Assembly (NCBI GenBank): GCA_021820805.1
Contig: JAKADF010000151.1
Location: forward strand, 1-7,609
DNA length: 7,609 bases
Source: Bacillota bacterium
GTDB lineage: Bacteria > Bacillota > Bacilli > Alicyclobacillales > Alicyclobacillaceae
Reading direction: 5' to 3'
Positions within the stretch are counted from its first letter, which is position 1, and every line of letters starts with the position of its first letter. The translations under genes and the position numbers were made by a program. Positions 1 to 6,786 of this stretch are shown one piece after another. A model generated the notes under the pieces. That model saw only the letters and a program-made list of their open reading frames with translations. It was not told the origin of the DNA and ran no database searches.

Positions 1-578
1 TGAGAAAAGTAGTAAGTTTGGTTATTCGCCTTGATCGTTTTATCCGAGATGATTTTGGTATTCATTACTCCACCATTATTAGCCTCTATCGAATCTCCAG
101 CTACTTCATAAATACAAATCGAAGGGGAATCGGAGTGACTGCTAGTTGACATTTTTGAATACTCCGCAAGGTATCGTTCGAAATGAGTAGTGTTGTTTTC
201 AAATGTCATTTCAATCCCCGATGAAGTAAGCTTGTAGTCAGGAAATGCTCTGCTGGGGAGTTTCGGTTGAAATGGAAGTTTGACACCGAAATATGTGCTA
301 TTTGTATTAGCAACACTGAATACACCTGTTGTTTTTTGATTAAATATGTTTGTGTTTAATCTATGAATAATAAAAAAGCTGAATGTGCTTGCAAGAACTA
401 TTCCAATACTAATCATCCCAAACGCTTTAAAAAAATTTAACAGACGATGGGATATTTGGCTTTTTACGCTCATTGACTTCAGATTAATTACAATACGGTT
501 TTTTGATTCTTGACTCATTCGTAAATCAGGAGCATTGCGCAACCTTTTTAGTATTTCCTTTTCATTTAATGAATCCAT
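1..578 (-). CDS. Putative membrane anti-sigma factor, partial (C-terminus beyond left edge)
   Basis: The frame is open for 192 codons from an ATG at 578 to the window edge, so the end of the protein is missing. The start has a strong ribosome site (GGGAGGGG) and lies inside the end of the ECF sigma gene, a 17-bp overlap that implies translational coupling. Residues 1-48 are charged and cytoplasmic, with an E-I-L-x-R-L-x-x-A-P pattern near the N-terminus that loosely recalls RsiX-type anti-sigma factors. Residues about 52-71 form one hydrophobic helix. The rest, from about residue 75, is polar and probably extracytoplasmic, with a segment like the PxLPxxxPDYKL type seen in DUF4367-like ectodomains. 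There is no HxxxCxxC zinc-binding motif. The inferred role is to hold the neighbouring sigma factor at the membrane and release it on an envelope signal. Partnership rests on gene order and topology; the family assignment is uncertain. Confidence 0.72.
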   Translation of the reverse strand, partial: MDSLNEKEILKRLRNAPDLRMSQESKNRIVINLKSMSVKSQISHRLLNFFKAFGMISIGIVLASTFSFFIIHRLNTNIFNQKTTGVFSVANTNSTYFGVKLPFQPKLPSRAFPDYKLTSSGIEMTFENNTTHFERYLAEYSKMSTSSHSDSPSICIYEVAGDSIEANNGGVMNTKIISDKTIKANNQTYYFS

Positions 579-1089
579 ATTGTTTCCCCTCCCGTATTTT
601 ATTTACGAGATCCGCTTGGCGAACAGTTTTTAACGCGCGATGAAATGCTGTATTGACACGCCTCGGTGTCCAGTTTAAGACGTTTGCAACTTCCTCACTC
701 GACATATCGTAAACCCCTCGTAAAATAAGGACAGTTCTGTACTGCGGGTTTAGGGACTGCAGAAGACTAAAAATATATTCTTTGGTTTCGGTCAGCTCGG
801 ATGATTCCTCTGGTGTCATCTCGTGAGAAGGAACTGTTTTAAGAACGGCTTCTGAAACGGTAACGATACGATGTTTGCGATAATAATCCCGTGCAACGTT
901 TCGTGCGATTGCAAATAGCCAAGTTTTTGGGCCAGACGTATTATGGAATCCATGAAAGTTTTTAAGTGCCTTAGTAAAGGTTTCTTGAACTAAATCCTCT
1001 ACATCCGTCTTTCCAGTGAAGTAAGCCAAAAATTTGTATACGTCGTCGCTATATGTGTAAAACCACTGTTCAATAACATTAGAATCCAC
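562..1089 (-). CDS. ECF-family RNA polymerase sigma factor
   Basis: This is a sigma-70 family extracytoplasmic-function sigma factor of 175 residues, the usual ECF length. Region 2 spans about residues 10-75: DVEDLVQETFTKAL (29-42) is the core-binding 2.2-type motif, and KTWLFAIARNVARDYYRK (55-72) is the 2.3/2.4 segment that recognises the -10 element. Region 4 spans about 106-157, with the helix-turn-helix SSEEVANVLNWTPRRVNTAFHRALK that reads the -35. A longer frame reaches an ATG at 1134, but I chose the GTG at 1087-1089 because a near-perfect GGAGGTGA lies just upstream with 4-nt spacing; that ribosome site would otherwise fall inside the coding region. The gene overlaps the downstream membrane protein by 17 bp, the classic sigma/anti-sigma arrangement. 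Its subgroup (SigX, SigM or SigW-like) cannot be fixed by eye. Confidence 0.93.
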   Translation of the reverse strand: MDSNVIEQWFYTYSDDVYKFLAYFTGKTDVEDLVQETFTKALKNFHGFHNTSGPKTWLFAIARNVARDYYRKHRIVTVSEAVLKTVPSHEMTPEESSELTETKEYIFSLLQSLNPQYRTVLILRGVYDMSSEEVANVLNWTPRRVNTAFHRALKTVRQADLVNKIREGKQYGFIK

Positions 1090-1279
1090 ACGATCACCTC
1101 CAAACGTTACTAAAAAATAGACTGTTTTTACCACAATTTTATTTCATTCTGATAAGGGAATCTTATATGTCGGGTACCGAAACTGAGAAATACATCACTC
1201 AGTGTAGTAAGGAGTAAATGCTCGATAACAGTAAAATTCACCATGTGGAGTTTGGATGTTGAGCTAAGAGGAGAATTGA

Positions 1280-1465
1280 ACTTGGAATTATACACGAGGA
1301 ACACTTATGCTTGAATTAATCAAGCGAGCGAAAGAGTGCGATGGTTTAGAGCAAATAAGCTTAACAGTGGTTGCTAACAACCACCCTGCAAAGCACCTTT
1401 ATAAATCTGTTGGGTTTGTAGTTTATGGTCATGAGAGAAATGCACTAAAATTCGAGGGAACATAA
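1280..1465 (+). pseudogene. GNAT-family N-acetyltransferase remnant
   Basis: An in-frame stretch just after a TGA (1277-1279) encodes the C-terminal half of a GNAT acetyltransferase. The segment LTVVANNHPAKHLYKSVGF followed by VVYGHERNALKF is a typical GNAT motif B (an N-x-x-A-x-x-L-Y-x-x-x-G-F core). The acetyl-CoA pyrophosphate loop, normally R/Q-x-x-G-x-G/A, is reduced to R-G at the YTRGTLML segment, and everything N-terminal to it is absent or interrupted by stops. The reading frame also stops about 15 residues earlier than usual, right after ALKFEGT. An internal ATG at 1307 would give 52 residues, but no ribosome site precedes it and such a fragment could not bind acetyl-CoA. No gene is evident in 1090-1279 apart from sequence that may be further decayed parts of this gene (for example around 1243-1276). 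Confidence 0.75.
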
Positions 1466-1602: not shown

Positions 1603-2826
1603 ATGAAACGGTATAATAAATGGTTGGTCGTAGGCACGGCAATCGCAATCATCAGTATATCCTTGCCAGGATGTTCTACCGCAGGAAATGAGTCATCTTA
1701 TCCGTCCAGCGTAACGTCTAAGTCTTCAACTCGCTCATCCAATTCAACACCTAAATCTTCAGAGACATCTAAGGTACACGAGAATCCATCATCAAAGAAC
1801 ATCACTGAGACTGCTATGCCTACGAGCAACGATACGAAGATGAACGCTTCTGATGATATACACATGACTTCCAACAATTCAGGGTGGGATTTTTCTTCGA
1901 CTCAGGACAGCACACTTGAACCCAACAGTATCATGCACACTGAAAACGGTGGGAAAACGTGGAAAGATGTAACACCATCCCAATTGAATGCCAAAAGTAC
2001 CTTTGCTGGCGGAGAAGCAAAGGATTCAAACAGCGCATGGTTTGTATCAACAAGTGTTCATAATTCGAGCGTTTTTCGCACATCTAACGGAGGCAAGACG
2101 TGGAAGGTAACAAAACTCACGACAACTTACCTAATGGCATGGATAAGTTTTATAGATTCAGAAACAGGATGGATCTTAGCATCTCCTGGTCCCGCCACAG
2201 GACAAGAACCAAGCGATCTTTACTACACATCTAACGGTGGGAAAACATGGAGTAAGATTGCAAGTACGTCTACGAGTTTACCTTTGAATGATGGAAAAAC
2301 AGGGATTTCATTTGTAAACGCAGAGACAGGCTGGATAACAATCGATGATGGTTTGCACGTCGGACAAGTGTCGCTGTATGTAACTCATGATGGAGGACAT
2401 ACATGGTCACCGCAACTTGTACCTGTACCTTCAGCGATGAAAAGCCAATATGTACATCCCTTGCCAGCAACGTTTTCAACAACTGTCAACGGGGTATTGC
2501 CTGTCGTTTTTGATGGTCGAAAAGGGACTATGTTTTATTTCACCACCGATGGCGGAGATACTTGGGTGCCATCTAGTGCTGTTGCGTTAAATAATGTCTC
2601 GAACCTCATTACGGTAAGTGCACACACAGTCTGGGCTACCGACGGACGCAAAGTATATATGACGGACGATGGTGGAAGTGAGTGGAGGATGTGGACACCT
2701 TCAAACAGCGGAGGAATTGTGGGGTTATGGGCTTCAGAGAGTAGTAGTGCCACAGCCACTATATTTACATCACACAACGGAAAAGTTACTCAGTACGATT
2801 TAAATTCAACCAGCATGAAGTCCTAA
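1603..2826 (+). CDS. Lipoprotein with six Asp-box (YCF48/BNR-like) beta-propeller repeats
   Basis: This is a 407-residue exported lipoprotein. Residues 1-23 are a signal peptide (KRxxK, then a hydrophobic run) ending in lipobox LPGC, with Cys24 the lipidation site. Residues about 25-105 are a low-complexity Ser/Thr/Asn-rich linker that would hold the domain away from the membrane. The remainder carries six Asp-box motifs of form S/T-x-D/N-G-G-x-T-W: 113-120, 160-167, 209-216, 261-268, 314-321 and a variant SEW form at 354-361, spaced 40-53 residues apart. ETGW motifs (187-190, 241-244) lie between boxes, as in YCF48/BNR-like beta-propellers. The first three boxes share NGGKTW almost exactly. 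Asp-boxes mark beta-propellers of sialidases, sortilins and the photosystem II assembly factor YCF48; here the ligand is unknown and no catalytic residues are evident. The start has GAGGTGG nine bases upstream, and an ECF-type promoter precedes it. It may act as an extracellular binding or sensing protein. Confidence 0.92.
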   Translation: MKRYNKWLVVGTAIAIISISLPGCSTAGNESSYPSSVTSKSSTRSSNSTPKSSETSKVHENPSSKNITETAMPTSNDTKMNASDDIHMTSNNSGWDFSSTQDSTLEPNSIMHTENGGKTWKDVTPSQLNAKSTFAGGEAKDSNSAWFVSTSVHNSSVFRTSNGGKTWKVTKLTTTYLMAWISFIDSETGWILASPGPATGQEPSDLYYTSNGGKTWSKIASTSTSLPLNDGKTGISFVNAETGWITIDDGLHVGQVSLYVTHDGGHTWSPQLVPVPSAMKSQYVHPLPATFSTTVNGVLPVVFDGRKGTMFYFTTDGGDTWVPSSAVALNNVSNLITVSAHTVWATDGRKVYMTDDGGSEWRMWTPSNSGGIVGLWASESSSATATIFTSHNGKVTQYDLNSTSMKS

Positions 2827-2852
2827 CACTGCAAGGTGCGTTTCGGCTCTTT

Positions 2853-3122
2853 TTGCACTATTGTAGGCAAGAACTGAAGAGGATCTTTAGTGATTTCTGT
2901 ATAAATATTCTATTGTGCAAGCGGCACTGTAATGTCGCTTTTGGCATTGGATTGACGATAATTGTCGTAACATTTCTTTTATTGGTGATGAGCCATGATT
3001 CCAGCGAACCGTTTTGGGAAATTCGTCAAATTCAGCGAAATTTGAAAATATGGACTGGCATTACATCTGTAACGATAATCCTGATGGTACTAGTGGGGTA
3101 TTTCATACGAAACAAAAAGTGA
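2853..3122 (+). CDS. Small two-helix membrane protein, start uncertain, N-terminus overlaps a repeat copy
   Basis: The open frame encodes up to 89 residues if read from the TTG at 2853. Two hydrophobic helices are evident, at about residues 29-46 (FGIGLTIIVVTFLLLVM) and 68-84 (WTGITSVTIILMVLVGY), joined by a polar loop SHDSSEPFWEIRQIQRNLKI and followed by a basic tail RNKK. No family is recognised. The first 30 or so codons are simply the dispersed repeat copy at 2857-2946 read in one frame, and no convincing ribosome site precedes TTG 2853, TTG 2913 or TTG 2952. Either the true start is within or just after the repeat (for example TTG at 2952, giving 56 residues), or the repeat replaced the original 5' end and the gene is broken. 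The hydrophobic pattern and the absence of stops suggest it was coding until recently. Confidence 0.5.
   Translation: MHYCRQELKRIFSDFCINILLCKRHCNVAFGIGLTIIVVTFLLLVMSHDSSEPFWEIRQIQRNLKIWTGITSVTIILMVLVGYFIRNKK
2857..2946 (+). repeat. Dispersed intergenic repeat, copy 1
   Basis: This copy begins about 30 bp after the stop of the Asp-box lipoprotein. It is the closest relative of copy 3 (3848-3939): over about 83 columns I count roughly a dozen differences and no gaps, including the shared blocks GCAAGAACTGAAGAGGA, TGATTTCTGTAT, GCGGCAC and GTAATGTCGCT. The terminal GGGCAG of the other copies is degenerate here (TTGGCAT). It runs into an open frame encoding a small membrane protein. Confidence 0.8.
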
Positions 3123-3125
3123 CGT

Positions 3126-3206
3126 GGCGGGAAACTTACATCGTTATCGTTTACTTTGTATGAAAATACAGTCCATGTGTAAGGCGGAAATGTCGCTCAA
3201 GGGCAG
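3126..3206 (+). repeat. Dispersed intergenic repeat, copy 2
   Basis: This copy starts 3 bp after the stop at 3122. Its left half is poorly conserved, but the right half has GTATGAAAAT, then TGTG, GGCGG and AATGTCGCTCAAGGGCAG in the same order and, within 1 nt, the same spacing as the other copies. Similarity to copy 5 continues beyond GGCAG (TTTAGCTGAGGAAG here, GTTAACTGAAGAAG there). Confidence 0.65.
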
Positions 3207-3248
3207 TTTAGCTGAGGAAGAGATGCATTTTTGAAGGGGGGATCTGAA

Positions 3249-3521
3249 TTGAGAAGAGTCAGCTTGCGAGCTTTGGCAGTCTTGTTCTTTATCGGATTGT
3301 TGGCGTGTATTTACTTTGGTTTCTCATATGGTCATGCAATTTGGGTTTGGCAACAGTTTGACCAAAGCTTTCACGGGCAGTGGCACTCTACACCGCTTTG
3401 GTTTGAAAATCAGGTGGATCTAGCGCTGCACTTGCTAATCATAACTGTCATCATCGCCTGTGCGGCAGGCGGGGCGTGGATTGGAATTCGACGGTCAAGA
3501 AACCGAACGAAATCCGCATGA
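3249..3521 (+). CDS. Small two-helix membrane protein, 90 residues
   Basis: I do not recognise the family. The frame opens further upstream (TTG at 3231), but I chose TTG 3249 because GGGGGGAT sits 6 nt before it, inside the longer reading. The product begins RRVSLR, then has a helix at about residues 8-27 (ALAVLFFIGLLACIYFGFSY), a Trp/His-rich outer loop of about 30 residues (31-56, with WVW, GQWHSTPLWFE), a second helix at about 58-79, and a strongly basic tail RRSRNRTK. Basic ends and an acidic or aromatic loop suggest both termini face the cytoplasm. It follows repeat copy 2 and is separated from the next small membrane gene by 95 bp without a repeat. Small hydrophobic proteins of this size can be membrane-complex subunits or immunity-type proteins, but nothing here decides. 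Confidence 0.72.
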   Translation: MRRVSLRALAVLFFIGLLACIYFGFSYGHAIWVWQQFDQSFHGQWHSTPLWFENQVDLALHLLIITVIIACAAGGAWIGIRRSRNRTKSA

Positions 3522-3580
3522 AATCATTCAGCATTGCTGGATTAACAGGCAGAAAAGTGGAACAACAAGGACACTGCATC

Positions 3581-3599
3581 TATTGGTATAATTTTCATA
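3581..3599 (+). promoter_or_regulatory. Extended -10 promoter before the 71-residue membrane protein
   Basis: A perfect TATAAT (3587-3592) is preceded by TGG, giving the extended TGnTATAAT form recognised by the housekeeping sigma factor without a good -35; none is evident upstream. The 19-base string TATTGGTATAATTTTCATA is repeated exactly at 4793-4811 before another small membrane gene. It lies 25 nt upstream of the start at 3617, so the leader is very short and contains the ribosome site. Confidence 0.6.
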
Positions 3600-3616
3600 A
3601 TGGGAGGTGTAGTTTT

Positions 3617-3832
3617 ATGTTACGAACAGGTAGGTTTTTATTCTTGCTCGGTATTGTTGTTATGGTCGTGGAATTGATAGCGAATATAGTCGGTATTGTA
3701 CGTTTGAGTTCTATTCACGCAGTAGGTATGAACTGGGGTACTACCATCGTTGTGCTGTTCGGTTCTTTCTTTCAAGGTGGGACGTTAATGGGGTTAGGTA
3801 AAATAATTGAGTTGTTAGAACGGAAACGATGA
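3617..3832 (+). CDS. Small two-helix membrane protein, 71 residues
   Basis: The family is not recognised. ATG 3617 is preceded by GGGAGGTG at good distance and by an extended -10 promoter; a longer in-frame reading back to 3476 would put both inside the coding region and overlap the previous gene, so it is rejected. Helix 1 covers about residues 7-29 (FLFLLGIVVMVVELIANIVGIV), and helix 2 about 40-61 (WGTTIVVLFGSFFQGGTLMGLG). The C-terminus KIIELLERKR is an amphipathic basic tail. The GSFFQGGTLMGLGKIIELLE stretch resembles the ending of many short Bacillota membrane proteins of unknown role. Repeat copy 3 begins 16 bp after the stop. A short inverted repeat ACAAG/CTTGT straddles the stop region but lacks a T-tract, so no terminator is claimed. 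Confidence 0.8.
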   Translation: MLRTGRFLFLLGIVVMVVELIANIVGIVRLSSIHAVGMNWGTTIVVLFGSFFQGGTLMGLGKIIELLERKR

Positions 3833-3847
3833 CAAGCTGCTTGTTGG

Positions 3848-3939
3848 ACTAATGTGGGCAAGAACTGAAGAGGACCTTTAATGATTTCTGTATGAATATT
3901 CGCGTGTGCGTGCGGCACAGTAATGTCGCTCTAGGGCAG
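3848..3939 (+). repeat. Dispersed intergenic repeat, copy 3
   Basis: This is the most complete copy and the best reference for the family. From 5' to 3' it carries GCAAGAACTGAAGAGGA, TGATTTCTGTATGAATATTC, GTGCGTGCGGCAC (a small GTGC/GCAC inverted repeat) and TGTCGCTCTAGGGCAG. TGTC and GGCA could pair around a 7-nt loop, using one G-U. From GTATGAATAT to GGGCAG is exactly 50 nt, the same as in copies 1, 4 and 5. Confidence 0.82.
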
Positions 3940-3989
3940 CATGCAACAAGACATACGGGTCACTGGATATATCTGATGCTGGTTATTAT

Positions 3990-3998
3990 TGTTAAGAT
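3990..3998 (+). promoter_or_regulatory. Possible extended -10 promoter before the 197-residue lipoprotein
   Basis: TGTTAAGAT at 3990-3998 fits an extended -10 (TGn plus TAAGAT), 26 nt before the TTG start at 4024. The upstream TTATTATTG is loosely like the TATTGG before the two exact 19-base promoters in this window. No convincing -35 is present, so this is a weak call. Confidence 0.3.
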
Positions 3999-4023
3999 AC
4001 CTGTTTAAAGAGGAGTGATATTT

Positions 4024-4617
4024 TTGAATCGAAAGTTGTACGGAATTGTTGCAGGTATCGTGCTCTTCACAACAGCTATCACTGGTTGTGCCACTTCGAA
4101 AACAACATCCGTCAATGTGACGAATACTACTGTCAAAACGCCCGTGGCGGCGGCACAATTGACTAAATCAAAAATAACGAAACAGTTAGAACAACAAGAG
4201 GGTAATCATGTTCTCAGCAATATCCAAGTCATCACTCTAAAGAATGTAGGTAGTCGAGCATATGCCTTTGTATCTTTCGATGAGGATGGAAAAATGAAGT
4301 ACGCAAATGTTATCCATTTATCATCAGAAGGTACTGGTATGGGGATATTTTCAGCACCGAATGTGAAAGGTCATTCGATACAAGCAGACCAACAAGTCGG
4401 AAAAGATGGCTATAACTTAATCACTGGAGTCGTGGTCAATAATCCAAACGTGAAAAACGTTGTGATTACATTTGCGAATGGAAGCGTAAAACAAGTCCCT
4501 GTTCAGAACGGACAGTTTTTGTTTTTTGGTCAAATCGGGACATCTGAATCGGATGCTTATTTGAAGAACATGATTGGGGTTTCAAACCACGGGGAAATTG
4601 TCGTTAACAAATCATAA
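4024..4617 (+). CDS. Predicted lipoprotein of unknown function, 197 residues
   Basis: The protein starts with NRKLYG and a hydrophobic run, followed by lipobox ITGC; with TTG 4024 as start the lipidated cysteine is near residue 22. I prefer TTG 4024 to GTG 4015 because GAGGAG lies 7-8 nt before it, whereas the GTG overlaps that ribosome site. After the cysteine comes a short Thr/Ser/Asn linker, then two apparently beta-rich segments: one around NIQVITLKNVGSRAYAFVSF and one around KNVVITFANGSVKQVPVQNG. The second looks like a strand-turn-strand ending with FLFFGQIG, a pattern seen in many uncharacterised Bacillota lipoproteins. No catalytic motif is seen and I assign no function. Repeat copy 3 lies 85 bp upstream and copy 4 begins about 60 bp downstream. 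The protein would sit on the outer face of the membrane. Confidence 0.85.
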   Translation: MNRKLYGIVAGIVLFTTAITGCATSKTTSVNVTNTTVKTPVAAAQLTKSKITKQLEQQEGNHVLSNIQVITLKNVGSRAYAFVSFDEDGKMKYANVIHLSSEGTGMGIFSAPNVKGHSIQADQQVGKDGYNLITGVVVNNPNVKNVVITFANGSVKQVPVQNGQFLFFGQIGTSESDAYLKNMIGVSNHGEIVVNKS

Positions 4618-4676
4618 GCCATAGAGCAAAGACTTCATGCTCAGCAAGAATGTGAATATACGGATCTTGAACAAAC

Positions 4677-4763
4677 AGGGGCATAAACCGAAGAGCACCG
4701 AGCCTGGACGCTTGCATGATTATTCACCTGGTGTGGCAGCAGCCTTCTGTCGCTCTCGGGCAG
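4677..4763 (+). repeat. Dispersed intergenic repeat, copy 4
   Basis: This divergent copy is GC-richer than copies 1 and 3. It carries GGGGCATAAACCGAAGAGCA at the left, then TTGCATGATTATTCACC (shared in part with copy 5), GGCAGCAGCC, and CTGTCGCTCTCGGGCAG at the right. CTGTC and GGCAG can pair (one G-U) around GCTCTCG. GCATGATTAT to GGGCAG is exactly 50 nt. The text after GGGCAG (GTGCAATAACA) resembles that after copy 3 (ATGCAACAAGACA). No gene is seen between 4618 and 4872. Confidence 0.72.
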
Positions 4764-4792
4764 GGAATGTGCAATAACAGCGATACCAAATT

Positions 4793-4811
4793 TATTGGTA
4801 TAATTTTCATA
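4793..4811 (+). promoter_or_regulatory. Extended -10 promoter within an inverted repeat
   Basis: TATTGGTATAATTTTCATA is an exact duplicate of 3581-3599, with TATAAT at 4799-4804 and the extended TG two bases before it. Here it is bracketed by an 8-bp inverted repeat, ACCAAATT (4785-4792) and AATTTGGT (4815-4822), absent from the other copy. The arms flank the -10 and expected start point, so they could be an operator or a leader hairpin. The next gene starts at 4873. Confidence 0.55.
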
Positions 4812-4872
4812 TATAATTTGGTGTTTTGCGTACAGTTGGTAAAAGCGAAATTTGAAGAGGGGATTTTATAAA

Positions 4873-5076
4873 ATGTTGACGCAAATAATGTATCTTCCCT
4901 TACTAAGGAACGTTTTTATGGTTGCTTTTGTGGTTTGGATTGCATGCATAGTTTTTAATATCAAATTGGCACTAAAGAAAAATAGAAGTGCCTACGCTTG
5001 GATATTAGCAGGGATTTTCTTTACATGGATAAGTACAGTTGTTCTGTACACGATGCCTTCTTTAGAACAAAAATAA
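4873..5076 (+). CDS. Small two-helix membrane protein, 67 residues
   Basis: The family is not recognised. ATG 4873 follows GAAGAGGGGAT by about 10 nt; a TTG at 4852 in the same frame would place the ribosome site inside the gene, so it is rejected. Helix 1 covers about residues 13-31 (NVFMVAFVVWIACIVFNI), a basic loop KLALKKNRSAY follows, and helix 2 covers about 42-60 (AWILAGIFFTWISTVVLYT). The positive loop predicts that the loop is cytoplasmic and both ends face outward, the reverse of the 90-residue protein at 3249. Repeat copy 5 follows about 43 bp after the stop. It has its own extended -10 promoter, so it may be a single-gene unit. Confidence 0.72.
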   Translation: MLTQIMYLPLLRNVFMVAFVVWIACIVFNIKLALKKNRSAYAWILAGIFFTWISTVVLYTMPSLEQK

Positions 5077-5118
5077 TTGAATGTTGAGTAAACAAGGCGT
5101 TACTTCCGTCGCTAATGT

Positions 5119-5200
5119 CATACCTTAAGAACTGCACGGTCTACGGTCTTGCATGATTATACGAGCCGACAGGGGCAATACTTTTGTAGCTCTTTGGCAG
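5119..5200 (+). repeat. Dispersed intergenic repeat, copy 5
   Basis: This is the most degenerate copy but still collinear: CATACCTTAAGAACTGCACGG aligns with the left part of copy 4, TCTTGCATGATTAT is nearly identical to it, and the end is TGTAGCTCTTTGGCAG in place of TGTCGCTCTCGGGCAG. GCATGATTAT to GGCAG spans exactly 50 nt. A stray CGTCGCT at 5107-5113 just before it may be debris of another copy. Confidence 0.62.
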
Positions 5201-5251
5201 GTTAACTGAAGAAGGATTGACTATCAACCAATCAGGAACTAGCCACACAAG

Positions 5252-5272
5252 AAGCTCCTTGGGAGCTTTTTT
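5252..5272 (+). terminator. Intrinsic terminator closing the small-gene region
   Basis: A perfect 7-bp stem AAGCTCC/GGAGCTT with a TTG loop is followed by a run of T (six counting the last stem bases). It is rightward only; the opposite strand lacks a T-tract. It separates the repeat-punctuated genes from the ECF operon. It also lies inside an unrelated 62-codon open frame, which argues against that frame being a gene. Confidence 0.8.
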
Positions 5273-5357
5273 GCGTTTCAACGTAGTATTACGCTCCTTG
5301 AGGGGATCCTGCCATGAAACAAAACTGAGATGTCCGAAAGGGCGTACCACGTATTTT

Positions 5358-5394
5358 TTGAAAACGTTAAAACTATATTGGTCGTTTTCTCGTT
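5358..5394 (+). promoter_or_regulatory. Tandem, symmetric ECF-type promoter before the second sigma gene
   Basis: Two ECF-like promoters overlap with an 8-bp phase. GAAAAC (5360-5365) pairs with CGTT (5383-5386), and TAAAAC (5368-5373) with CGTT (5391-5394), each with exactly 17 bp between. GAAAACG (5360-5366) and CGTTTTC (5383-5389) also form a perfect 7-bp inverted repeat, so the same -35/-10 pattern reads on the minus strand. Expected rightward starts, about 5392 and 5400, leave short leaders before the ATG at 5418. ECF sigma genes commonly drive themselves from such promoters; here that is inference. Confidence 0.55.
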
Positions 5395-5417
5395 TATATA
5401 GATGAAGGGGGATTGAC

Positions 5418-5990
5418 ATGCAACAGTCGGACGAAGCACTCGTTGCTGAAATCAAACGTGGTAGTCAGTCCGCCATGGAAGTGCTCATTCGTCGTCACTA
5501 CAAGCTGGTTTTTGCGGTTGTTTATCGAAAGACGGGCGACTACCACTTGGCGTGCGATTTGACCCAAGACATTTTCATCAAGGTGGCTGCAGGCATTGGT
5601 CGTTATACAGGCGACAGGAAGTTTAAAAATTGGCTCGTCACCATTGCCTATAACCATTGTACGGACTACTTCCGAAGTCCGCGCAGTCGTGATCGAAATC
5701 AAGAAACGGATGTACCTGACGAAATTCCAGATGAACGAATGAACGTGATTCGTTTGCTGGAGCAAGACGATGAACGGCAACGGGTGAAAGATGCCTTGAT
5801 GGAGTTACCTGAGTATCAGCGCGATGCCATCGTACTGAGTTACTACGAAGACATGAAAATTAAAGACATTGCCAATGTCATGCAGTGTAGCGATTCAACT
5901 GTGAAATCGAGGCTGCATCAAGGGCTGAAGAAGTTGCGAAAGTTGTTAAACGGAGGTGATGAATATGACACAACACGAAGCCACTCATGA
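5418..5990 (+). CDS. ECF-family RNA polymerase sigma factor
   Basis: This 190-residue sigma factor has the two ECF domains. Region 2 spans about residues 20-88, with DYHLACDLTQDIFIKVAAGI (41-60) as the core-binding 2.2 motif and RKFKNWLVTIAYNHCTDYFR (67-86) as the 2.3/2.4 promoter-melting segment. An acidic linker follows at about 95-120, then region 4 at about 122-176, where MKIKDIANVMQCSDSTVKSRLHQGLKKLR forms the helix-turn-helix. AAGGGGG lies 6 nt before the ATG. The gene overlaps the downstream membrane protein by 26 bp, and the likely autoregulatory ECF promoter is just upstream. The arrangement (sigma, membrane protein, ABC ATPase) resembles the sigY-yxl operon of B. subtilis, but the subgroup is not identified from sequence alone. 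It differs clearly from the sigma factor at 562-1089. Confidence 0.95.
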   Translation: MQQSDEALVAEIKRGSQSAMEVLIRRHYKLVFAVVYRKTGDYHLACDLTQDIFIKVAAGIGRYTGDRKFKNWLVTIAYNHCTDYFRSPRSRDRNQETDVPDEIPDERMNVIRLLEQDDERQRVKDALMELPEYQRDAIVLSYYEDMKIKDIANVMQCSDSTVKSRLHQGLKKLRKLLNGGDEYDTTRSHS

Positions 5991-6786
5991 ATGGGAAGCG
6001 TTGTTTGAGGAAAACGGAGACGAGGTGAATATCGAAGAATTAGGTCTTATTTTGGACAAATTTAGCGTCGATTTCCCGCCTGAACATGTTATTCAAAGCA
6101 CCATTGACCAGGCTGTTTCTCACGTACCACAGCCTCGCGAAGTCGCAGCAGTGCCACTTTTTGAGCGTTTGTTTGGGATGCTGTCGTTACAAACAGAATA
6201 TGTTGCTAAGTGGTTTTGGTTGGTGAGTGCAGTGCTGTTCCTGATGGGATACCTGATCACAGCCAGTGGTGGATATAACCCATACAAGGTCATCTTCATC
6301 TTGTCTCCCTTGCCGTTTGTACTTGGCATCCTTGAACTCTTTCGCAGTGTGGACAGTGGTATGGCACAAATTGAATTGACGTGCAAGACATCATTGCCAC
6401 AAACACTGATGGCGAGGCTCACAATCCTTGGCATCTACAACATCGTCCTTAACACCGCAATGTCTGTTGGATTGTCATGGTTGGTCGGAATGGACCTATG
6501 GCGGGTTGTACTCTTTTGGTTCGTTCCGTTCACATGGATTTCGGCTGTAACACTGTATCTCTCGACAAAGTTCCGTGGCAGAACCTTGGTGCCTGTTATG
6601 GGTTTGGTTTGGTGTGTGTCAATGGCACTTGCCTTCTCCAACCCAACCGTTCTGTCCTTCCTATTATCGCTGAATGACGTGATGTTTGTCGGGTTCTCTG
6701 TGCTTGGACTGGCACTGTTCGCAAGTCAAATAAAGCTGCTTTATGTCCGTTTTAAAGGAGGCCTCTTGGTTGAAATTACAGATTGA
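5965..6786 (+). CDS. Six-helix membrane protein, candidate membrane-bound anti-sigma factor
   Basis: This is a 273-residue polytopic protein. ATG 5965 is chosen because GGAGG ends 8 nt upstream; GTG 5956 and ATG 5959 overlap that ribosome site. Residues 1-80 are soluble and acidic (EWEALFEENGDEVNIEEL), then FSVDFPPEHVIQSTIDQAV, a form seen in membrane regulators encoded with ECF sigma factors. Six helices follow at about 82-101, 108-125, 153-172, 180-200, 207-226 and 238-256, with a basic C-terminal segment. There is no zinc-binding HxxxCxxC motif. Position between an overlapping sigma gene and an overlapping ABC ATPase gene suggests that the N-terminus binds the sigma factor while the helices either sense a signal or interact with the transporter. 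An alternative is that it is an ABC permease-like subunit. The family name is not recognised with confidence. Confidence 0.85.
   Translation: MTQHEATHEWEALFEENGDEVNIEELGLILDKFSVDFPPEHVIQSTIDQAVSHVPQPREVAAVPLFERLFGMLSLQTEYVAKWFWLVSAVLFLMGYLITASGGYNPYKVIFILSPLPFVLGILELFRSVDSGMAQIELTCKTSLPQTLMARLTILGIYNIVLNTAMSVGLSWLVGMDLWRVVLFWFVPFTWISAVTLYLSTKFRGRTLVPVMGLVWCVSMALAFSNPTVLSFLLSLNDVMFVGFSVLGLALFASQIKLLYVRFKGGLLVEITD

Follow-up and report, generated by a model that had tools for sequence, protein, structure and literature searches.

What is a repeat of almost constant length doing behind one small gene after another in a bacterial contig? The question is raised by a 7,609-nt stretch of DNA (the window, which is the whole of contig JAKADF010000151.1, assembly GCA_021820805.1) from a Bacillota bacterium of the family Alicyclobacillaceae, where an initial annotation, made from the sequence alone, placed five copies of a dispersed repeat at 2857-2946, 3126-3206, 3848-3939, 4677-4763 and 5119-5200. 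The repeat is real, and all five copies are present at those positions. We consider it probable that each repeat serves as the 3′ attachment site of a mobile gene cassette, and that the cassettes belong to an integron-like platform with a XerC-like enzyme. As judged from comparison with related genomes, the cassette array and the crossover point are well supported.

We analysed the anatomy of the site. It lies 3′ of a small gene and consists of a left dyad, the palindrome TGCATGAATATGCA at a fixed spacing, and a right dyad with the 6-bp centre GGGCAG. The right-site consensus of 197 unique strict sites is TTATTGCGCTATn-GGGCAG-nAwwGYGCAATAAG, with inverted arms of ~13 bp around the six bases. 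Because a site entered the strict scan only with an intact GGGCAG and 10 or more of the 14 palindrome bases, conservation of those two parts, though not of the arms, is partly due to how the sites were chosen; the scan found 202 strict sites in the fetched array regions versus 1 in reversed sequences. The palindrome begins 44-45 nt upstream of the right centre (44, 45, 45 and 45 nt in copies 2-5 of the window), and its distance to GGCAG was 44-45 nt in seven of the eight rows of our first scan, in which the spacing was not imposed. The near-constant length reported initially, and the selection on spacing proposed to explain it, were both borne out. The left dyad has the centre GGGGGC, mostly 83-87 nt before the right centre, and arm landmarks at the same distances as in the right site; with this dyad, recognisable in about half of 48 sites of Alicyclobacillus mengziensis, the repeat unit is longer than first described.

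A position model built from 194 strict sites of other genomes found four of the window's copies (right centres starting at 3201, 3934, 4758 and 5195) with scores of 37.4-46.9, while the best of 20 Markov resamples scored -1.6. Copy 1 was not among these hits; it was found by a covariance model, R2 (E = 9.2e-4 in a 1.01-Mb search), whose training set excluded copy 1 and included the other four window copies. An iterated version of the position model drifted to left halves on the other strand; its counts were not used, whereas the sequences joined for it were.

The TGTC/GGCA stem suggested initially did not hold up. RNAalifold predicted zero pairs from 49 sites, the palindrome and arms showed no covariation beyond shuffles in 197 unique sites, and the repeats had no match in Rfam at gathering scores. 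The two halves of a site paired no better with each other than with swapped halves (for one strand -9.93 versus -9.69 kcal/mol, p = 0.79; for the opposite strand p = 0.66), and we rejected attC-like pairing of left with right half. Because specific half pairing and covariation between arms and palindrome are both absent from these tests, the anatomy fits protein half-sites on double-stranded DNA better than folded RNA or attC.

We searched for the repeat elsewhere. The starting pattern scan of genome contigs gave at least 118 stretches from a wide range of phyla. Most of these probably matched by chance, and only one was pursued: locus L112 of A. mengziensis, which holds more copies of the same element on one strand, 3′ of small genes. 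A model of 11 copies (R1) had 58 matches at E <= 1 in the A. mengziensis genome, most within four dense regions. The later model R2 (49 sites, sequence only; threshold E <= 0.01; at most 123 candidates scored per genome) detected sites in 26 of 41 Alicyclobacillaceae genomes, designated here by G numbers: 108 in G009, 65 each in G002 and G010, 52 in G021, 51 in G034, 50 in G042, 46 in G020, 34 each in G008 and G031, 28 in G029 and no more than 21 in any other. Many of the copies found by these searches are intergenic, as the initial annotation had anticipated for a mobile or structured element. In an even sample of the class, 17 of 299 genomes had an R2 match (E <= 1e-4; at most 16 candidates scored per genome), several of them belonging to Alicyclobacillaceae. 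Sites also lie on the secondary contigs G008:C2, G008:C3, G042:C2 and G034:C2, which are perhaps plasmids.

The sites form arrays. Neighbouring sites less than 5 kb apart were on the same strand in 186 of 187 pairs, and the 164 same-strand units of 0.2-3 kb had a median length of 940 nt. The longest open reading frame (ORF) starting with ATG ran with the site in 137 units; three units had no ORF of at least 50 amino acids (aa). Among the best 25 of 103 Pfam families matched by 146 distinct unit proteins, Acetyltransf_1 had 12 matches, GrpB, DinB, Methyltransf_25, Asp_protease_2 and IS110 three each, and NUDIX two. Three of the 146 are IS110-family transposases, and one unit protein is a reverse transcriptase.

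Natural junctions show that recombination between sites takes place inside the six central bases, GGGCAG. In contig 75 of G031 (coordinates of the joined G031 stretch), the segment 23478-27492 is 99.8% identical to one place in G002, and the segment 27487-29064 is 99.9% identical to a second place there, on the other strand; the overlap of the two, 27487-27492, is exactly GGGCAG. Of 96 positions, the two parental sites have the same base at 39, and no common run exceeds six bases, so that this joint is unlikely to have come from homologous recombination or from assembly across a long word present in both. Seven matches correspond to whole cassettes, six between genomes and one within G021, with both ends at sites in at least one of the two sequences. 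A 611-bp cassette is common to A. mengziensis and the A. tolerans-like G029 (92%) between unrelated flanks, the left edge in G029 being GGACAG; a 405-bp cassette is shared with G021 at 95.8%; and a 744-bp stretch occurs twice, at 100%, in one G021 array, each copy having one end at a right centre. More generally, 61 of 1036 homology ends (reciprocal matches counted twice) fell within 5 nt of a right centre, versus 1 of 1036 random points; the other 975 lay elsewhere. The window itself contains such an edge, as 5199-7604 matches G029 at 85.5% from inside the centre of site 5, upstream of which the sequences differ. These natural junctions confine the crossover to the site, and, at the level of sequence comparison, they show cassettes in different contexts across genomes and in more than one copy within an array. 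The initial suggestion of a spreading unit was partly supported: the link to mobility stands, with the repeat as the attachment site of moving gene cassettes, and spread of the repeat alone does not.

Two other explanations of the repeats have to be set against these results. Small mobile elements (miniature inverted-repeat transposable elements or repetitive extragenic palindromes) inserting downstream of genes would account for many, mostly intergenic copies per genome, and cassettes would then be shared by homologous recombination. However, 186 of 187 neighbour pairs keep one orientation, the parents of the chimeric joint have no shared run beyond six bases, and the units shared are whole cassettes and not repeats (no search was made for empty sites of the repeat alone); we regard this explanation as very improbable. 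Selected 3′ regulatory RNA elements or terminators would likewise be found on the coding strand, 3′ of genes, as the repeats are. This reading is, if anything, slightly less credible still, given the coincidence of homology breakpoints with GGGCAG and the lack of an Rfam match, predicted pairs or covariation; a structured RNA or stem was rejected on the Rfam, RNAalifold, pairing and covariation tests, all of which were null.

Which enzyme moves the cassettes? A group of XerC-like tyrosine recombinases of ~280-295 aa was found in the arrays of G021. Such an enzyme (E <= 1e-40) is encoded in 11 of the 26 site-bearing genomes and in none of the 15 site-free ones (Fisher p = 0.003). We examined 18 loci: 15 of the 18 loci of the family (three partial copies omitted) and three from G275 and G267. 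GGGCAG follows within 200 nt of the recombinase stop codon in 11 of 18, compared with 5.8% of random 200-nt windows of array regions; it lies 65-104 nt past the stop in 8 of the 15 and 155-156 nt past it in all three G275/G267 loci. In two loci of G009 (L341, L345) and one of G010 (L343), the recombinase gene has an inverted right site ~220 nt upstream in addition to a direct one on its downstream side. Because right sites, one of them inverted, thus flank the gene on both sides, arrays could leave it in both directions.

The recombinase belongs to PF00589, and its closest solved structure is XerD (1a0p, 103 bits), with the integron integrase IntI4 (2a3v) at 52 bits. It has the catalytic residues of XerC, XerD and XerA, and its scores lie below the curated cut-offs for XerC (194 versus 335 bits), XerD (178 versus 330) and XerA (176 versus 220). 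A protein database contained 272 relatives at E <= 1e-40; among the best 120 of these, the named ones are from Alicyclobacillus species, including A. fastidiosus and A. acidoterrestris, and from Sulfobacillus harzensis. A branch at 53% identity (P0089, P0098) is encoded on multi-megabase contigs and carries a 9-residue insertion.

Recombinases of other kinds were also found near arrays. In G002, the stretch that separates tRNA-Leu(GAG) from one array encodes two tyrosine and two large serine recombinases (L163, 10510-16520). This block is shared with G031 (L230) at 98.95% identity whereas the chromosomal genes before it are only 66-76% identical, so the island was transferred recently. In G028 and G032, this tRNA gene likewise has a relative of one of the tyrosine enzymes, TyrR1, on its 3′ side, as it does in G034, where the relative is broken. 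No site was present within the 60 kb read around TyrR1 and TyrR2 of G032, nor within the 40 kb read around recombinases linked to other tRNA genes in G010, G008 and G020; because no site lies near any of these, we read recombinases of the TyrR1/TyrR2 type as island integrases. The serine recombinase SerR1 had a close match only in G031 among the 41 genomes (SerR2 was not searched across genomes). With TyrR1 and TyrR2 lacking a nearby site in G032 and SerR1 closely matched only in G031, the tRNA-linked enzymes were set back as candidates for the enzyme of the system.

It is possible, although we think it unlikely, that the same arrays and crossover are served by an enzyme other than the XerC-like one, namely the host's own XerC/XerD, with dif-like sites as their substrate, or the TyrR1/TyrR2 pair linked to tRNA genes. 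Arrays are present in some genomes in which a search for the proposed enzyme gave no match; one array of G002 has TyrR1 and TyrR2 at its head, and all of these moved together, either to G031 or from it; and relatives of TyrR1 precede arrays in G028 and, broken, in G034. A 6-bp centre between inverted arms is also the make-up of dif (PMC6449649). However, a site after its gene and a position inside arrays are features of the XerC-like enzyme and not of TyrR1, and TyrR1/TyrR2 of G032 and the tRNA-linked relatives in G010, G008 and G020 are siteless over the distances given above. The arm sequence, moreover, does not resemble that of dif. When a dif-like pattern was sought, G002 and G009 gave nothing and G010 gave two matches with one mismatch each, so that the actual dif site was not located.

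Several observations nevertheless weigh against the proposed platform or its enzyme. No enzyme match at E <= 1e-40 was found in 15 of the 26 site-bearing genomes, including G042 (50 sites), G008 (34) and G029 (28), and several enzyme copies contain stops or are partial, both copies of G267 among them. Among the first 15 loci, the centre that follows the gene is a variant one in three and is missing from four. To the same side belong the promoter-like GGTAAAA ahead of the post-gene site in 11 of 18 loci, the other recombinases that adjoin some arrays, and the expectation that every genome carries XerC/XerD. As for the arrays, the longest ORF opposes the site in 24 of 164 units, and the left dyad is clear in only about half of the 48 A. 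mengziensis sites. Taking both sides together, we consider that the XerC-like enzyme probably runs the system.

In the proposed mechanism, a cassette would extend from one GGGCAG to the next and comprise an upstream region, usually one small gene, and then the site. The right site would bind two tyrosine recombinase subunits, with strands exchanged across the six bases, and the left dyad and palindrome may serve as accessory binding sites. Cassettes would leave and enter as circles. The XerC-like recombinase of ~280-295 aa would be the enzyme, its gene being followed by an attI-like copy of the site, often with the promoter-like GGTAAAA. Arrays that lack the enzyme, as in the A. tolerans-like G029 and perhaps in the window's host, would resemble the CALIN elements (clusters of attC sites lacking integron-integrases) of integrons.

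In the window, the row of small genes, each followed by a repeat, occupies 1603-5076 on one strand and gives way to an operon for an extracytoplasmic function (ECF) sigma factor, a membrane protein and an ATP-binding cassette (ABC) transporter. Its first gene, 1603-2826 (+), lies 5′ of site 1 and encodes a YCF48/BNR-repeat lipoprotein (Pfam BNR and PSII_BNR); it is probably cassette cargo, although no left cassette edge was found and no site was seen upstream of it within the window. Distant relatives of this protein (~23-34% aa identity) are encoded in regions of G002, G031 and G034. Site 1 (2851-2947, +) is degenerate, with a left dyad at ~2851-2882, the palindrome at 2898-2911 (TGTATAAATATTCT) and a decayed right centre TGGCAT at 2942-2947; the R2 match covers 2895-2944. 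It is followed by the cassette gene g2 (2946-3122, +; an ORF of uncertain start codon), whose product is a small membrane-like protein with a relative (56% aa identity) encoded in an array region of G021. Site 2 (3118-3220, +) has a weak left dyad, the palindrome at 3157-3170 and the right centre GGGCAG at 3201-3206. Beyond it, g3 (3231-3521, +; an ORF, start codon again uncertain) encodes another small membrane-like protein, for which a Pfam scan gave no family over its cut-off.

A sixth, degenerate site missed by the initial annotation lies at 3510-3566 (+), overlapping the end of g3, with the right centre AGGCAG at 3547-3552. It was recognised from a 325-bp match to G008 that begins here, at 3548 in the window and at GGGCAG, the cassette edge, in G008. 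The cassette gene that follows, g4 (3617-3832, +), encodes a 71-aa membrane-like protein with relatives (86-89% aa identity) in array regions of G002, G021 and G008. Site 3 (3841-3953, +) has its left dyad at ~3841-3872, palindrome at 3889-3902 and right centre GGGCAG at 3934-3939, and precedes g5 (4015-4617, +; an ORF of uncertain start codon), a cassette gene whose lipoprotein-like product gave no family in a Pfam scan. Site 4 (4664-4777, +) comprises a left dyad at ~4664-4696, the palindrome at 4713-4726 and the right centre GGGCAG at 4758-4763. The last cassette gene, g6 (4873-5076, +; an ORF), encodes a 67-aa membrane-like protein and is preceded by a promoter-like repeat, D3 (4766-4811), which it has in common with g4 (3554-3599). 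Site 5 (5101-5214, +) closes the array, with the left dyad at ~5101-5134, the palindrome at 5150-5163 and the right centre TGGCAG at 5195-5200.

Downstream, the product of 5962-6783 has 84% identity to an Alicyclobacillus tolerans protein, so the host is probably related to that species. ECF sigma factors are encoded on both flanks of the array, at 3-1134 (-), with a likely partner gene, and at 5418-5990 (+). Read by eye, ~1290-1465 (+) resembles a C-terminal piece of a Gcn5-related N-acetyltransferase without its beginning. Window DNA from 2500 to 5420 had no match among plasmids.

A similar array was seen outside the family. Plasmid CP053689.1, deposited under the name Arthrobacter citreus NEB 577, encodes a 48% relative of the recombinase inside a row of small genes that includes two for NUDIX proteins. 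With patterns in which the centres were required, the 49.9 kb read contains 14 matches to the right site, with TGGCAG at the centre, and 11 to the left site, with TGATGC; every one is on the minus strand, and a reversed control gave none. On a plasmid of Sporosarcina psychrophila, one right-site match lies ~85 nt before the recombinase gene, pointing away from it, and on one of Peribacillus simplex a GGGCAG hexamer lies 42 nt after the gene. The CP053689.1 array also contains a group II intron with a reverse transcriptase; such reverse transcriptases and the IS110-family transposases are found within these arrays or next to them (L361, 2986-4188; L362, 29245-30573). IS110-type transposases and group II introns target attC in integrons; by analogy, the IS110 and reverse-transcriptase elements seen here may target the present sites too.

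Integrons are the textbook gene-capture machines, and the present system has several features in common with them and their CALIN elements: small genes of diverse kinds lined up in one direction with a recombination site after each (186/187 pairs in one orientation; longest ORF running with the site in 137/164 units), a putative attI-like site next to the recombinase gene, and clusters without a recombinase. Integron cassette cargo is rich in acetyltransferases, like the cargo here. In contrast to integrons, the site is built of dyads around the 6-bp centre GGGCAG and has no folding specific to its own halves. The consensus of the sites also lacks GTTRRRY, the end motif of attC. Nor do the recombinases reach the cut-off of 265 bits for the integron integrase model TIGR02249, the G021 enzyme scoring 90.0, TyrR1 69.8 and TyrR2 48.9 bits. 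Compared with XerC, XerD and XerA, the enzyme shares PF00589 and scores below all three curated cut-offs. The dif (pdif) modules of Acinetobacter likewise have a 6-bp centre between inverted recombinase arms and move genes as modules found in varied contexts. Their 28-bp site, however, is composed of an 11-bp XerC arm, the centre and an 11-bp XerD arm, whereas the arms here are ~13 bp and of other sequence; flanking sites are opposite there and direct here (186/187 neighbour pairs); and each site here has extra parts and, in many genomes, a dedicated recombinase. By the tests made, the system would thus work like an integron without being one, and appears distinct from dif modules.

In the IntegronFinder 2.0 survey, a single complete integron (in Limnochorda pilosa) and a few CALIN are reported for Firmicutes, and the reason for this rarity is called unclear (2022; PMC9024848). 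We found no description of arrays like the present ones in the titles and abstract beginnings of papers found by open-access full-text searches, preprints and subscription papers being outside that scope; an earlier description in either is possible. As many as 108 sites were detected in a single genome of these acid-loving Bacillota, and the results suggest that some Bacillota use another machine for the integron job, one whose arrays would be missed by tools seeking IntI and folded attC. On balance we favour a separate gene-capture platform, in which a Xer-type recombinase works with an attI-like site that has a promoter of its own and with double-dyad cassette sites centred on GGCAG, residing on Alicyclobacillaceae chromosomes and on plasmids of other bacteria and sometimes two-headed. 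It would do for part of the Bacillota the job that superintegrons do in Vibrio. With it come a candidate recombinase, a crossover defined to 6 bp and a reservoir of cassette genes; its comparison with integrons could separate what a cassette system needs from what is an accident of integrons.

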